Shown piece by piece: positions 28,256-64,000 of a stretch of DNA of 64,000 nucleotides; position 1 is the stretch's first letter, and every line of letters begins with the position of its first letter. The stretch lies in NCBI GenBank assembly GCA_949751835.1, contig CATKHK010000004.1:793038-857037 (forward strand). The letters are read 5' to 3'. The notes under the pieces are model-generated. The model was given only the letters and a program-made list of their open reading frames with translations. It was not told the origin of the DNA and made no database searches. The position numbers and the translations under genes are program-made. Source of the DNA: Blepharisma japonicum. Taxonomy: Eukaryota > Ciliophora > Heterotrichea > Heterotrichida > Blepharismidae.

Positions 28256-29215
28256 TTAGAACTTTCTAGTTTTTGTTGAGTTAGAAAGTACGAGCGAAGG
28301 ATCATTCTTCTTGACTTCTTTCATTTTTGCCAACAGAGAGTAAGACTTCTCTTCTTCTTTCTCTTTTTCTTCTTCTATATTTGTATATTCTCTTTGCTCT
28401 GAAATATCAACGTTCGTAGAAATTGGCAGTAGGTATTTTCTTAACAATCGAGACGTATTTAATGAAATCGGTTGATAACTCGAGTGTGAGGCCTGAACAT
28501 GCTCTGCCAGTTTGCATAGGCACTTTGTTGAATATCCACATTGGGGAATTGTGCAAGTGAAACTATGAGCCTGTGTAATATGCTCTACTAATTCAGTAAT
28601 TGAACTTGAAACAAAAGGGCAAAACTTTGATGGGCAGAAAACACTCATTTTTGTTTCAGAAGTATTCAGCAGAGGATCAGCTTTGGCAATTTTTCTAGCC
28701 TTGGGCTCTTCAATTTGAAACTTTCTTGGGTTAACTTTTGGAAGAGACTCAAAATCCACTTTTTCAAGAGACTTAGGGCGGTCTTTCTGGGTTGTGGGAG
28801 TTTCTTTTTGGACTGCTGGAGTTTCTTTTCGAACTGCTCTAGTTTCTTTTTGGACTGCTGGAGTTTCTTTTTGGACTGCTAGAATTTCTTTTTGAACAAC
28901 TGGGGCTCTTTTTGGGACTTTTTGAACTCCTGAAGATTTTTTTGGGTCTGTTAGAATTTCTTTTTGAACAACTGAAGTTTCTTTTTGTAAGTTCTTTTGA
29001 GCTTTTGGGGGATCTTGAGTGACGTTTAGCACCTGCTTTTCTGTTCTCAACGTTTTTTTGCTAGGTGTGGATATATCAGGCTGGATAATTTTAGGGCTTT
29101 GCTTTTCTATTTTTGCCTCAATCCTTTCTGGAATTTTTGGAGGTTCAATAATTAAATTTTGTATGTAATTATAAGGAAATCTTTCATCTTCAATAGACCA
29201 CCATTCTTCTAACTT
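28256..29215 (-). CDS. C2H2 zinc-finger protein with VQKETPA heptad repeats; 5' end unresolved
   Basis: An open frame runs from 29215 (just after an in-frame TAA at 29216-29218) to the stop at 28256 and reads like protein throughout (LEEWWSIEDERFPYNYIQN at the start), but contains no ATG before the repeat region. Either the first exon lies upstream across an intron I could not identify, or the start is atypical. A region of seven-residue repeats (E-T-P-A-V-Q-K) spans 28780-28990. Two C2H2-type fingers follow: CPSKFCPF...H-x4-H and CTIPQCGY...H-x4-H. The C-terminus is acidic then basic. A nuclear nucleic-acid-binding role is plausible; no orthologue recognised. Confidence 0.7.
   Translation of the reverse strand, partial: KLEEWWSIEDERFPYNYIQNLIIEPPKIPERIEAKIEKQSPKIIQPDISTPSKKTLRTEKQVLNVTQDPPKAQKNLQKETSVVQKEILTDPKKSSGVQKVPKRAPVVQKEILAVQKETPAVQKETRAVRKETPAVQKETPTTQKDRPKSLEKVDFESLPKVNPRKFQIEEPKARKIAKADPLLNTSETKMSVFCPSKFCPFVSSSITELVEHITQAHSFTCTIPQCGYSTKCLCKLAEHVQASHSSYQPISLNTSRLLRKYLLPISTNVDISEQREYTNIEEEKEKEEEKSYSLLAKMKEVKKNDPSLVLSNSTKTRKF
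28780..28990 (-). repeat. 21-bp in-frame tandem repeat
   Basis: Imperfect repeats of TTCTTTTTGGACTGCTGGAG-like units on the plus strand encode the heptad ETPAVQK on the minus strand. Roughly eight copies, the outer ones diverged and the central ones nearly identical, consistent with slippage expansion inside a coding region. Confidence 0.8.
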
Positions 29216-29484: not shown

Positions 29485-32400
29485 TTATCCCCAAGAAGAG
29501 CCACTTGAACTATTTCCCCATGAATTTCCAGAACTTTCAGCAGGTTTGGCTCCCCAGGAAGAAGTATTGCTTTCAGCAGGCTTTTCATTGCTTTGAGCTG
29601 GTGTTGAGTTTCATGATGACTGCTGAGGGGCTGGTGCTGAATTCCAAGATGATGAAGCAGGAGCTTGTTCTGTTGCAGGGGTGCTCGAGCTTGTTGTTGA
29701 TGAACCACCCCATCCTCCCTCTCCACTTGTGACTGGTGCAGGCGTTGATGAATCACCCCAACCTCCAGAAGAAGCAGGCTGAGTTGTGCTTCCTCCCCAA
29801 GAACTTGATGAGGATTGAGGAGCTTCAGTACTCCCGCCCCAGCCACCTGAGCTTGCTTGTGTAGTACTTCCTGCATCTCCCCATCCACCTGAGCTTGCTT
29901 GAGTAGTGCTTCCAGCATCACCCCATCCACCACTGGAGCCTCCTGAGCCACCCCATCCTGCAGAAGAACTTCCTGAGTCAGCCCAGCCAGAAGACCCAGA
30001 GTTGGAGTTTTCTCTGTCATTGTCTCCAGATTCCCTTCGTCCTCTTCCTCGACCTCTGCCTCTTCCTCGGTTTTCTCCTGGGTTTGGACAGTCTCTTGAC
30101 ATATGACCTTCTTGGCCACATTTGAAGCAGCCTTTGGGTTTGTTTTCACCTGGGTTTGGACATTCTCTTGACATATGCCCTTCTTGACCACATTTAAAGC
30201 AGCTCCCTTTAGGTTTACTTTCGCCTGGATTTGGACATTCCCTTGACATATGGCCTTCCTGGCCACACTTGAAGCAGCCTTTAGGTTTGCTTTCTCCTGG
30301 ATTTGGACACTCTCTTGACATATGCCCTTCTTGACCACATTTAAAGCAGCTCCCTTTAGGTTTACTTTCGCCTGGATTTGGACATTCCCTTGACATATGG
30401 CCTTCCTGGCCACACTTGAAGCAGCCTTTAGGTTTGTTTTCTCCTGGGTTTGGACAATCTTTAGACATATGACCTTCCTGGCCACACTTGAAACATCCTC
30501 TTCCTCTTCCTCTGCCTCCGCGGCCTCCTCTTGAGCCTCTGTCACCTGACTGGTCATTATCATCAGAACCACCCCAATTTGTAGATGGAACCTGTGGAGC
30601 TGATGAACCCCAAGACTCTCCAGATGACTCTCCCCAGCTTCCGCCTGATTTTTCTTGAGATCCTCCCCATGAAGCTCCAGAACTTTGGCCACCTTGACTG
30701 CTTCCGCCCCATCCACCTGAACTTTGTTTGTTTTCTTCACCACCGCCTCCTCCCCAGCCTCCTGAGGTTTGTGCTGGCTGTTGGCTTGCGCTAGAATTTC
30801 CTCCTCCCCAGCCTCCTGAGGTTTGTGCTGGTGTTTGGTTTGCACCAGAATTACCTCCCCCCCAACCTCCCGATGTTTGTGCTGGTGTTTGGTTTGCACC
30901 AGAATTTCCTCCCCATCCTCCAGCAGTTTTAGGTGCAGAATTGTTGGCTTCTTGCTTTTTTTCTTCGCCGCCCCAGCTTTCAAAATTACTTGTACTTCCC
31001 CACTCATCAGCTCTTGGAGTTTTAGTTAAGTCTTTTCCACCAGACCATTCCTGAGCACCGATATGCGGGGTTTTATCATAGGGTGTTGCATTTCCCCACC
31101 CAGGAGTCCTAGCAGGAGTTTGAGACACGACCTGGGCATTTTCGTCTTGTTCTGGAGGCTTGTTTTGAGTAAGAAAAGCATTTGAAGTATCAATATTTGG
31201 AGGTTTAGATCTTGAGAGCTGGCTTAAATAAGAAAGATCATTGCAGTGGCGCTTAAACCAGCTTATTAAAAATCCCATGTTAGGATGGTAGGCTTCGTGG
31301 AAAAAAAGTCCTTTAGGCTTGACTTTGATAAACTCTTTGATAATTTGGTCTGTTTTTTGATACAGAAGAACAAAATATTGAGGATAATGAGGGGTAACAG
31401 CAAAGTAATATGGAACAGTTGTAGGCCTTGTGGTCTTTTCTTGAGAAATTAAATTTTCTAAGACTGAAAGGCTTGCTGAGTTCGTTTCTTTGAATTTTGG
31501 ATGGGTGATAGCTTCTCTTACAAGTTTTTCGCAAGGCGCTATATAGCGATCCACAACATCTTGCAGAGATTCATATACTTCAGTCCCAATGCGGAATCTG
31601 GACCCTAGCATATTGGCTGATGGCTTACCTTCTTCTATGATATCTAGATGTGCATATATATAATCATAAAATTTCCACGTACATGTCAAATGATCTTGCC
31701 CGCGGCTTGAAGGCCTAAATATAAAATCTCCTATTTCTTTAGACGAGAGCTCATCACATGCTGTCCTCATCCCTACGTTTCTATATTTCAAGTGGTTTAT
31801 CACCCTAGGGACATATTTTTGGCCAGTTTTCTGCTCATCCTCCATCACCGTTTTTTCAGTTCAATCACCTTCTTCTATTATAAAAGCTTCATCAAGGGTG
31901 AGGTTGATAAACTTCCCATGGTTTATGATGTCGTCTGGGAGCAAGCTTAATTTCATTTTAAAGAATAAGTCTTTTTGTGACCGCAGCTTTGCTGTGACTT
32001 CAATTACTCTTACAGTAAGTTTTCCGCCTTTGACAAATTTTTTCAAGTCTGTTTCATTAGGAATCCTTCCTTCTACAAGGTGCCTTTGTTCGATAATCCC
32101 TTCTAGCTCACATTCTAGCATGCATCTCAAGCATTCACGACGCTCATCATAACCAAGGACCATGACCTGAACCACGCTTCCACGCTTAAGAGTACTGGGG
32201 GTTTCATTTGTGCAGAGGTATAAGAGTTCTTCTGGAGTTGGCTCAAAGTACCGCTTTTTCGGGTTTCCAAATGGAGAACTGAGCTCTGAAACGATAAACT
32301 CTAAGGTCTCTTTCATGTTCTTGAACCCTTTTTCAGCTTGCATTTGAGCGTAGTAATCTAGGTCTAATTCTTGCATTTTCTGAGGAGATCTAATGATTTC

Positions 32401-35076
32401 GTGGATTAGAAGTTCGTCAGGAATTTGTTCGTCATTTAAAGCGCTTTTTGAGACTATTGCTGCAAGTTCGTAGTATTCAGGGTGAATTCTGGTGGAGTCC
32501 AGTGGGTTAGTTTTGCCAAGCTCGTATGGAATTTTTATGAATCCACAAGCATTTTCGTAGACTCTCTGAGGGAGAAGTCTTTTCGTCAAAATTTCTTGCC
32601 TTGTTGTCAAAGTTCCACCACATGCATGCTTGATACCTTCTATTAATGAGTAAGCACGAACAGGTCCAAGTCCAGGGATAAATGACAAAAGTCCATATAA
32701 ATGTGGCTTATGTATAGCCTCGTTAATGTCCACTCCAGAGTGTGAACAAACACAGACAGCAGCAATTTCCATGCTTGTCAGCTTTTTGTGCTCATTTGCT
32801 AAAGACTCTAAAGGATGCAAGTTGAGATATTTGATCTGCAGCTCATTCGGGTCATTCCATAAGCCTAGAATTTCAGCTTTTGGGTTCTGCAGAGATCTCC
32901 CTAACGATATAGCCATCCTGGTCAAAACTTTATGATTTTCACACATCTTAATCGATCTTTGGGATGTGGCGAAGAGTTTGGCGATTTTGGTGTCTCCCAT
33001 AGTAATTAGAGGGGTTTTGCTGAAAAGCTGAGCTTTATCTACTTCTACGCCGATTTCCAGTTCATTAAAGCTATCAACAGTTAAGGCTTCAGCAAGCAGT
33101 CCAATAGACCTCCTTAGCTGTACACTTTGTAGCGAGTTGGCACCAATAATAATTGCGTTTGGTTTGCTAGCTAGCAGAAGGTTGACGAATTGAGATCTTT
33201 CTTTTAAGTATCTTGCCTTATCAGTTTCATGTAACTCTTCAGGCTTTCTCACCATCAAAGTATTGAGCAAAGCTATATCATTAATATCCCCATTTCTTTT
33301 AAGTGCAACCACAGCTGTCTGGCCTAGGAATTTTACATCAGGATCAGTAACTATAGAAACAACACATGGGCTGCTTGACCCTTCCACAATATAGCTTGGC
33401 TTGCTCAGCATTTCAGTAAACTTGCTTTGAATTTGTTCAATAATCCAATCTTCACTTTTTGAGAGTAGTTGTTTCTTAAAGCTGTCTTCAAACTCTTTAT
33501 AAAGCTGTGCAAATGTGAACTTTAACACTTCAGTCCTGAACTGGTTCCATTCTGACTCAACACTTTCAGTTGTGACTGTTGTGTAAAGTCCTTTTACCAA
33601 ATTGAAAATTTTGTCCTCTTTGGCGTCTTCCCATGGTAGCTTGAACTCGATTTTTATAAGTTCAGAACTTTCACACTTTAAGGCTTGACCCCAAAGCTCA
33701 GGTGACCAAGAATCTATGGATTTTCCATTGGCTAAGTTTTTGACTCCATAGAATGGATGAAACACGTCCAGAACTGTTGTGCCTTTCTCAGTTGGAGATG
33801 TATAAATTTTCACTTGTTTTTTGTATTCATCTCTTATAAAACTTCTAAATGCTGGGAAATTGGAAAGTTCTGCCTGCATAAGGTTGCAAGCATTTGTGAT
33901 AACTTGGATTTCTTCTGAAAAGGTTGGGCTGCGGAGTTTAAAGGCTAAGCCTTGCGGTTTCAGGTCTGGCTTGAGAGGTTTGTGAATTTGTTTGTTTTGT
34001 TTAAGATTCTCTGAGATCTGTGAAGGAGTTAGGCCAGCTTTTGCAGCGAATTCATTGAGTTTGTTAATTCTGGACTCTTGAACTGGGTTATATGCTTTTC
34101 TCAGTAATCTGCTTCCATCTTGGTAAGTATATACATATGCTTTTATATAAGCTTCGAGGTCATTTATTTCTAGCAGATACTCATTTGTTGAGTGCGAGTT
34201 TAACAGTATGCTTACACTGTCAGGCAAAACCCCCGGGGTTTCTGAGACTAAAACTTTGTCGCCGTCATTTAGAGGGCGTCCTTTTGATAATGAATCTCCA
34301 TTAGCCGCAGCTGAATTAAGCAAAATTTGCAGGTTTTGTTTTGTTGAGTATAAGAAGCCCCAATCTTTATCCCATGCCCAAAGCTCTAGTAAGTCATTTT
34401 CAGTTTCTATTTCTGGCTTCAGGACGTTGAGTCTGTATTTATATATAAAAGAAATTTCATATTTTTCTACCCTATATAGTAACAAGAAAGTGTGGATTTT
34501 TGCTTTGATTGCTCCTTTAATCCCATGAGGATTCTTTTGAAGAAGTCTTTGCAAGAGCCATTCTTCTTCTAAGTTCAGTTCAGCTTCAGTGGGATATTCG
34601 CGGTTTTTAAGGGAAATTTGTAAACGCTCCGGAATGTCAAGTTGCTTTAACATGATATCTTCTGCTGTTCCATACTGGCTGATATAGTCATAAGGCTCAA
34701 ATTCGATTTTCCTTGTTTCAGCTTGGCCTGGCTCGGGGGTTGGTCCAAAGATCTCAGCAGCGACGTCAAAGTTTTCCCCGAGATGTTCTGGGATTTCTCC
34801 AGGCTCCATTGAGACATCGCTCTCAGTGTCAGATGCTATTTTGGCTTGTTTGCGAGGGATTGCTTCGTCAGAAAAGAGCTTTTGCTCGAGCTCTGCTCGA
34901 GCTTTGGATCGGATACTGGAGTTTAAGTCAAGATTTTCCAGGCTTTCTTTGAGGTCAGATTCAGAAGGTTGAACAGTGCGAAGGCGCTTTTGAGGAGTTT
35001 CAGGGTTTGCGTCTCGGTCAATAACCATAGAATCCGGTTGAGCGTGCTTGGTAGCGGGATTTTGCAAACTGGACAT
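29485..35076 (-). CDS. SPT6: SPT6 with C-terminal WG-repeat/CCHC zinc-knuckle tail, 1863 aa
   Basis: A single frame joins three open stretches through TGA 31861-31863 and TGA 29611-29613 (both Trp). Residues 1-1071 hold the acidic N-terminus and SPT6 core, including the HhH segment [18 protein letters not shown] and an S1 domain ([24 protein letters not shown]). Residues ~1095-1310 are the tandem SH2 ([40 protein letters not shown]) that binds the phosphorylated Pol II linker. Unusually, the protein continues for 550 residues. A WG-rich stretch (12 WG) is followed by six CCHC knuckles (residues 1528-1663, [18 protein letters not shown]), an RGRG linker and ten more WG. Usual SPT6 proteins end soon after the SH2 domains. 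SPT6 is a histone chaperone and elongation factor; the tail suggests RNA and Argonaute binding (inferred). Confidence 0.95.
30085..30500 (-). repeat. 72/75-bp zinc-knuckle tandem repeats
   Basis: Six consecutive in-frame units encode CCHC knuckles. Units alternate between linkers ending KPKG and KPKGS (72 and 75 bp). A two-unit block is itself duplicated at a 147-bp offset: the segment starting at 30191 recurs at 30338 almost without change. This is higher-order homogenisation, a sign of recent expansion or unequal exchange. Confidence 0.9.
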
Positions 35077-35225
35077 TTTATTTATAGACTATAGCCAACA
35101 GCCAAAATATGGAAGCTGAACCCCCTAATTTCAACAAGATTAGTAAGTGGGCCTGAGAAGCAAATTTCAATAAAAAATTTATACTTAATTAGCTTATGAA
35201 CTAGTATGGTATGAACTGATAAAAT

Positions 35226-35711
35226 ATGAACTTAGACACAACGATAGAGCAGGAAATTATGCTGGCTTTAAGTAAGTCAGACTATGACACTTTGAGGCAG
35301 CTTCTAACTCCTTCAAATATAAACAAGCCACTTGACTCATTTGGGAACAGGCCGATACATCTTGCAGCCCTGAAAATGGATATTGAAATGATAGAATTCC
35401 TTGTAAGGATGCTTGGTGCAGATGTGAACATTGTAAATTCTACTAATTGATCACCTTTAACATTCCTTGTTTTGCGCAGCGATCCTAATATCAATAAAAC
35501 TGTGGGTAGGCTTGTAAAATTAGGTGCAACTATTAAAAATGATAAAAGACCATTTGAAAATCTCGCTCTGGACTACGCAATATCTCACAAAGAGGAAAAT
35601 CCAAATCTGTGCAATTTTCTGGAGAGCTTAGCAAATAGCGATTTAAACTGGGGAAACCGCAAAGCAGCTGTTTTTCTCAGGCACTCATTAATTGGGCCTC
35701 ACTTACTTTAA
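35226..35711 (+). CDS. ankyrin-repeat protein, 161 aa
   Basis: Continuous frame with TGA 35448-35450 as Trp. Residues ~15-110 contain ankyrin units (KSDYDTLRQLLTPSNINKPL, FGNRPIHLAALKMDIEMIEF, then GADVNIVNSTNWSPLTFLVL). The third repeat (INKTVGRLVKLGATIKNDKR) is degenerate. The length suggests 3-4 repeats and no other domain. It is divergent from SPT6, with 149 bp between start codons. A protein-protein interaction module; the partner is unknown. Confidence 0.85.
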
Positions 35712-63886: not shown

Positions 63887-64000
63887 TTAGGGTGTTAGGG
63901 TGTTAGGGTGTTAGGGTGTTAGGGTGTTAGGGTGTTAGGGTGTTAGGGTGTTAGGGTGTTAGGGTGTTAGGGTGTTAGGGTGTTAGGGTGTTAGGGTGTT
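63887..64000 (+). repeat. telomere, TTAGGGTG octamer array
   Basis: Fourteen and a quarter uninterrupted copies of TTAGGGTG (CCCTAACA on the complement) run to the window end. The G-rich strand points outward, as at a right-hand chromosome end. The octamer is the one known for heterotrich ciliates (Blepharisma, Stentor). No degenerate repeats precede it, so the junction is abrupt. Confidence 0.98.

Follow-up and report, generated by a model that had tools for sequence, protein, structure and literature searches.

Reiterated tryptophan-glycine dipeptides (WG or GW) within a disordered region form the Argonaute platforms of GW182/TNRC6 and NRPE1 (PMC12477606, PMC11127964; here and below, published work is cited from excerpts of the papers named). 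Comparable tails have been described on transcription elongation factors. The plant SPT5 paralog SPT5L, also called KTF1 or RDM3, carries a WG tail that is needed for AGO4 recruitment (PMC11127964), and SPT6 proteins with a WG/GW tail behind the SPT6 core are already published for plants and Physarum, as in Arabidopsis SPT6L and Physarum SPT6 (PMC11127964, PMC9864664). In Tetrahymena, the GW protein CnjB copurifies with Twi1 and is redundant in the selection of scan RNAs (scnRNAs) with Wag1, a second GW protein tied to Twi1 (PMC5666084, PMC6562869, PMC2636879). Here we analyzed a window of 64,000 nucleotides from the ciliate Blepharisma japonicum (assembly GCA_949751835.1, contig CATKHK010000004.1, positions 793,038 to 857,037), which contains a gene, designated C4, for an SPT6 protein ending in two WG arrays that flank six CCHC zinc knuckles. 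No ciliate SPT6 with WG and CCHC arrays was found described in the excerpts of literature searched. We propose, at a probability of roughly 0.5, that C4 is a genuine SPT6 elongation factor whose tail would tether both nascent RNA and complexes of Piwi with small RNAs to elongating RNA polymerase II (Pol II).

The C4 coding sequence occupies 29485..35076 on the minus strand, the strand of every C4 feature given below. It runs from the first ATG (35076) of a frame open over 29485..35088 to a TAA stop at 29485-29487 and specifies 1863 amino acids when UGA is read as tryptophan (translation table 4). A reading made earlier from the letters alone (the sequence-only reading) had proposed this single frame, and its counts of WG (12 ahead of the knuckles and 10 behind them) and of knuckles (six) were reproduced exactly, as was the RGRG linker. 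An annotation artefact, in which adjacent SPT6 and WG/knuckle genes are joined by reading through UGA, could draw on the two TGA codons within the frame, at 31861-31863 (residue 1072) and 29611-29613 (residue 1822). However, the two SPT6 paralogs of the same genome, C13 and C30, both have TGG at the place of the first, and the B. stoltei ortholog has tryptophan at the places of both, so both are tryptophan codons. The neighboring ABC transporter frame contains 8 in-frame TGA codons, and the same fusion occurs in the second Blepharisma species and in many database proteins. The artefact is already contradicted by these comparisons, and we rejected it as highly improbable.

The B. stoltei ortholog (P0001, 1851 amino acids, same layout) is the best database match of C4. 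The cores are 95.6% identical (1226 of 1283 residues) in an alignment free of gaps, and therefore none of the C4 core shows an intron. The two tails differ through changes in repeat length; over 556 aligned residues they are 95.7% identical, and 25 of the 26 tryptophans in the tail are matched by a tryptophan. In each of the sequence tests made, the SPT6 core and the WG/knuckle tail appear to form one protein, as the sequence-only reading had held.

Within the core, Pfam detected HTH_44 at residues 163-255 (34312..34590; E 7.6e-8), just below its 35-bit cut-off in C4 (33.3 bits) and above it in C13 (47.2 bits). It also detected the helix-hairpin-helix family HHH_7 at residues 748-850 (32527..32835; 52.5 bits, cut-off 27, E 7.1e-14), HHH_9 at residues 857-935 (32272..32508; 29.3 bits, cut-off 23.1, E 1.6e-6) and the tandem SH2 family SH2_2 at residues 1077-1277 (31246..31848; 181 bits, cut-off 27, E 2.4e-53). 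The tandem SH2 domain of SPT6 has a part in holding the protein on elongating Pol II. The sequence-only reading had claimed an S1 domain in addition to the core and tandem SH2; the latter two were recovered, whereas S1 fell short of E 0.001 in C4 and reached 21.7 bits in C13, under its cut-off of 27.5. The scan, which covered C4 and C13, found no YqgF at E 0.001 in either protein (the family is listed for many homologs), no SPT6_acidic match in C4 and one below cut-off in C13. By composition too, the N-terminal region of C4 (residues 1-110, 34747..35076) is without the acidic SPT6 N-terminus; acidic residues make up 0.16 of the first 80 positions, compared with 0.28 and 0.34 in the two paralogs. 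We assign C4 as a derived SPT6 paralog that lacks the acidic N-terminus, an assignment that rests on the tandem SH2 and on whole-core homology to SPT6, which was clear in the database search. The cores of GW182/TNRC6 and NRPE1 are unrelated to SPT6, and the domain set of GW182 comprises UBA, RRM and a silencing domain; none of this set is among the six Pfam families found in C4.

The tail contains the first WG array (12 WG; residues 1327-1502, 30571..31098), followed by an RG-rich stretch (residues 1513-1527, 30496..30540), the six CCHC knuckles (residues 1528-1663, 30088..30495), which were recognized by Pfam zf-CCHC in six stretches and by motif count, the RGRG linker (residues 1672-1681, 30034..30063) and the second WG array (10 WG; residues 1708-1863, 29488..29955), which closes the protein with ...SSWG-COOH. 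With the knuckles masked, the tail contains 35 WG+GW dipeptides, compared with a mean of 11.3 (standard deviation 2.8) and at most 23 when its residues were shuffled 5000 times. Glycine adjoins 23 of the 26 tryptophans, which are spaced at a median of 14 residues and a minimum of 8. The reiteration of WG/GW in this low-complexity tail is above composition, as in WG/GW Argonaute-binding platforms, the likeness that the sequence-only reading had drawn.

The C-terminal tryptophan is conserved in WG-bearing SPT6 proteins. Among those from the core searches and from this genome, 23 of 25 have tryptophan within their last three residues, compared with 19% for other windows within the final 60 positions; the two exceptions are short database entries (P0034, 913 amino acids, and P0037, 605 amino acids). 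In the set retrieved by tail searches the count was 13 of 19, and the apple and Tetrahymena proteins described below likewise end in W. A TP-rich linker motif of about 30 residues, of the type HIG.QEW.GG....TPRADDW, lies between the tandem SH2 and the WG tail (residues 1324-1359, 31000..31107). In a pattern check of 12 homologs it was found in 6; Stentor P0007 and paralog C30 lack it.

A search of the genome assembly (45.2 Mb, 224 contigs) with SH2_2 found three SPT6 loci, and HHH_7 recovered the identical set. Besides C4 these are C13 (L004, from position 756; 1740 amino acids), which has four knuckles and 13 WG in the same layout as C4, and C30 (L049, 2865-7484; 1539 amino acids), which has two knuckles, two WG and the C-terminus DPWG. 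Both have the acidic N-terminus that is absent from C4 and its B. stoltei ortholog. The first WG array comprises 12 WG in C4 and 11 in the ortholog but only 2 in C13. The second SPT6 without a tail that the sequence-only reading sought was found in part, in that C30 has a short knuckle tail and no WG array, whereas C13 has a full tail. Its view of the tail as special to C4, or clearly to development, proved too narrow, since C13, with a canonical acidic N-terminus, and many homologs from the core search carry the tail as well. No separate CnjB-type gene was seen, because HHH_7 matches only the three SPT6 loci; a strongly diverged or intron-split gene could escape this search.

A WG habit common to the SPT5 elongation factor was considered and rejected, as both SPT5 genes of the genome are without a WG array. 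The plant SPT5L/KTF1/RDM3 protein resembles C4 as an elongation-factor paralog with a WG tail and differs from it in belonging to the SPT5 family. Plant SPT5-type proteins with CCHC knuckles made up 10 of the 59 tail-search matches (P0073, P0077, P0078, P0082, P0086, P0093, P0103, P0106, P0110 and P0113); several are named RNA-directed DNA methylation 3, and the carrot protein P0078 has dense WG repeats besides its knuckles. They appear to be a parallel case in a second elongation factor.

Zinc knuckles were matched 43 times in the genome, and among the 12 loci examined, none besides SPT6 exceeded 2 WG+GW. Two of the loci appear by eye to encode DEAD-box RNA helicases, L025 (G000:C15 near 450096-450377) and L027 (G000:C12 near 354088-354219), with C-termini of 4 and 2 CCHC knuckles, respectively, and an RG/RR stretch; this module is near-identical to that of SPT6 and is without WG. 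The knuckle units of SPT6 and the helicases have identities of 0.67-0.79 in DNA and 0.68-0.86 in protein, and we therefore do not claim a recent exchange between them.

The distribution of the tail was examined with a core query (C4 residues 400-1350, a stretch that includes 67 tail residues at its end). All 33 proteins retrieved extend to the end of the tandem SH2; knuckles are present in 23, at least 4 WG+GW in 18 and both in 17. In a 55-row core tree, the clade that includes the Blepharisma and Stentor proteins has knuckles in all 27 of its rows and from 0 to 35 WG+GW. In a wider tree of 58 rows, a further large group, which probably represents other ciliates, has knuckles in 17 of 21 rows; this group consists mostly of metagenome proteins and was partly retrieved by tail likeness, so that its count is biased. 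In Stentor coeruleus, knuckles number nine in SteCoe_8277 and two in SteCoe_24471; the former has 12 WG+GW and the latter no WG+GW in its tail. Both resemble C4 as SPT6 with knuckles and have fewer WG than C4. The tails of the named animal and fungal SPT6 proteins in the set contain 0 to 2 WG. Apple SPT6 (P0024), the one plant SPT6 examined, shares a WG/GW tail with C4, with 13 WG+GW of its own, but is without CCHC knuckles. A fusion unique to C4 was rejected, since the layout is widespread among SPT6 homologs, and in these comparisons the WG/knuckle tail looks like an old SPT6 module of ciliates. We also observed a fast-evolving SPT6-like group (P0081, P0084, P0089, P0090 and P0092) with 5-6 knuckles, 33-50 WG+GW and a retained SH2_2 match, whose members may be equivalents of CnjB elsewhere among the ciliates.

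CnjB carries retroviral-type zinc fingers (CCHC) and glycine-rich repeats. Its GW repeats and CCHC fingers both have equivalents in C4, with 22 WG and 6 CCHC. A search with the C13 tail retrieved two Tetrahymena proteins annotated as hypothetical, ABPG72_012380 of T. utriculariae (P0072, 1745 amino acids) and ABPG74_018727 of T. malaccensis (P0074, 1776 amino acids), in both of which HHH_7 lies above the 27-bit cut-off (36.6 and 44.0 bits, respectively). An SPT6-core profile was built from 20 cores with their tails removed, no row of which is known as Tetrahymena, and was run on the first 1180 residues of each protein. Of its 1351 positions, the profile matched P0072 over 102-1089 (222 bits) and P0074 over 99-1100 (237 bits), and it matched none of 40 shuffles and neither of 2 reversals. 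The alignment of P0074 to the SPT6 core includes the motifs PER, stsP, LQF-GxGprK and LDxTxI. The core is followed in both proteins by WG repeats, seven knuckles, further WG and a C-terminal GGW, with 25 WG+GW in P0072 and 24 in P0074. Thus, these proteins share with C4 a homologous, SPT6-derived core and a tail in which WG repeats flank a CCHC array. They differ from C4, which keeps the tandem SH2, in that their cores are strongly diverged, no SH2_2 was found at E 1 and the SPT6 match ends ahead of the tandem SH2.

From genus, layout and length, P0072 and P0074 are very probably orthologs of CnjB. This CnjB-like protein looks like a reshaped SPT6 with the same WG-knuckle-WG tail, and the resemblance to CnjB that the sequence-only reading had guessed at is better founded than was stated. 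Tetrahymena also has a separate Spt6 (PMC10830130). A link between CnjB and SPT6 was not found in the excerpts of literature searched, a set that did not include the original CnjB interaction paper.

Twelve PIWI-domain loci were found in the Blepharisma genome, and one of these 12 Piwi genes, compared with structures, is most like the PIWI clade. Four consecutive PIWI-domain matches lie on the minus strand at G000:C87:83374-94768. B. stoltei produces development-specific, scnRNA-like 24-nt RNAs, and the Piwi and Dicer-like homologs of this species are reported to be strongly upregulated during development (PMC9942856). In Paramecium, the elongation factor TFIIS4 is required for the noncoding transcripts targeted by Piwi-bound RNAs (PMC11723920). 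SPT6 itself acts on elongating Pol II (PMC12716044). We suggest that the core and tandem SH2 would keep C4 on elongating Pol II, as is established for SPT6 generally. The nascent transcript could plausibly be held by the knuckles and RG stretches, and Piwi-small-RNA complexes would dock at the spaced tryptophans. Small RNAs could thereby scan transcripts at the site of their synthesis, possibly in the service of DNA elimination. In Tetrahymena, the tail would have moved to a dedicated SPT6-derived paralog without the tandem SH2, very probably CnjB. A broader and more tentative proposal, which we favor less than its opposite, is that an ancestral ciliate SPT6 had a Piwi-docking WG tail and RNA-holding knuckles, that CnjB is such an SPT6 minus the tandem SH2, and that heterotrichs have kept the two functions undivided, with scanning on Pol II.

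The main rival to Piwi docking sees in the tail an appendage for general RNA binding, phase separation or mRNA handling, which would couple elongation to mRNA processing or export without any small-RNA partner; we regard this as a serious possibility that falls short of even odds. Knuckles are steadier than WG arrays among the core-search proteins (23 against 18 of 33, by the counts above), the two helicases share the knuckle and RG module without WG, and the canonical-looking C13 is also tailed, all of which would suit such an appendage. Several further observations weigh against Piwi docking or its link to CnjB. Some SPT6 proteins combine knuckles with a scarcity or absence of WG; C30 and the group of Stentor P0016 are examples, with one or two knuckles and hardly any WG, a pattern that also suits the rival. 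Another 38 proteins came from a profile search; of the 26 that extend to the end of the tandem SH2, only 6 have knuckles, 5 have at least 4 WG+GW and 3 have both. Deletion of the WG/GW repeat of Arabidopsis SPT6L left genomic recruitment and RNA-directed DNA methylation unaffected (PMC11127964), so that the plant tail is dispensable there, which likewise suits the rival. The tryptophan (hook) pockets of Argonautes are reported to vary greatly within the PIWI clade (PMC12477606), the clade that the one Blepharisma Piwi examined most resembles. GW182, in contrast, binds AGO-clade proteins. P0072 and P0074 were identified as CnjB in the manner described, not from the T. thermophila CnjB sequence, and they sit on a long branch with no settled place in the SPT6 tree; the approximately unbiased test rejected neither their union with the divergent group that bears knuckles (p-AU 0.123) nor their union with the entire 16-row clade (p-AU 0.152). 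Against a general RNA tail stand the strong excess of WG+GW over composition in C4, whose tryptophans lie at least 8 apart, the retention of the C-terminal tryptophan in most cases, and the very probable Piwi partnership of the SPT6-derived Tetrahymena protein that carries such a tail.

C4 could instead be a development-specific SPT6 paralog that serves noncoding transcription and scnRNA-guided DNA elimination, with C13 or C30 as the housekeeping copy. This reading can be combined with Piwi docking, and we consider it less likely than not. It accords with the missing acidic N-terminus and enlarged first WG array of C4 and its B. stoltei ortholog, with the scnRNA-like RNAs of B. stoltei (PMC9942856) and with the development-specific Spt4/Spt5 paralogs that Paramecium uses for meiotic noncoding transcription (PMC10830130, PMC12716044). 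However, the Tetrahymena genome is reported to have no specialized Spt4/Spt5 paralogs (PMC10830130), and because C13 carries the same tail, the tail alone is no mark of a developmental role. A developmental specialty of C4 is plausible from its N-terminus and first WG array.

The frames that flank C4 appear by eye to encode an unrelated protein whose cysteines and histidines are spaced in a C2H2-like manner (28256-29215, minus strand) and a small ankyrin-like protein (35223-35711, plus strand). The window and the contig terminate together in TTAGGGTG repeats at about 63887-64000, which we infer to be a macronuclear telomere.

If the tail of C4 binds Piwi, it would provide a direct physical link between the scanning of nascent transcripts, which is now only modeled, and the elongation complex. 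The SPT6 ancestry of the CnjB-like proteins suggests an origin for CnjB and would explain how a GW protein could find nascent transcripts. The tail of ciliate SPT6 parallels the WG tails that plants carry on SPT5L, SPT6L and NRPE1.

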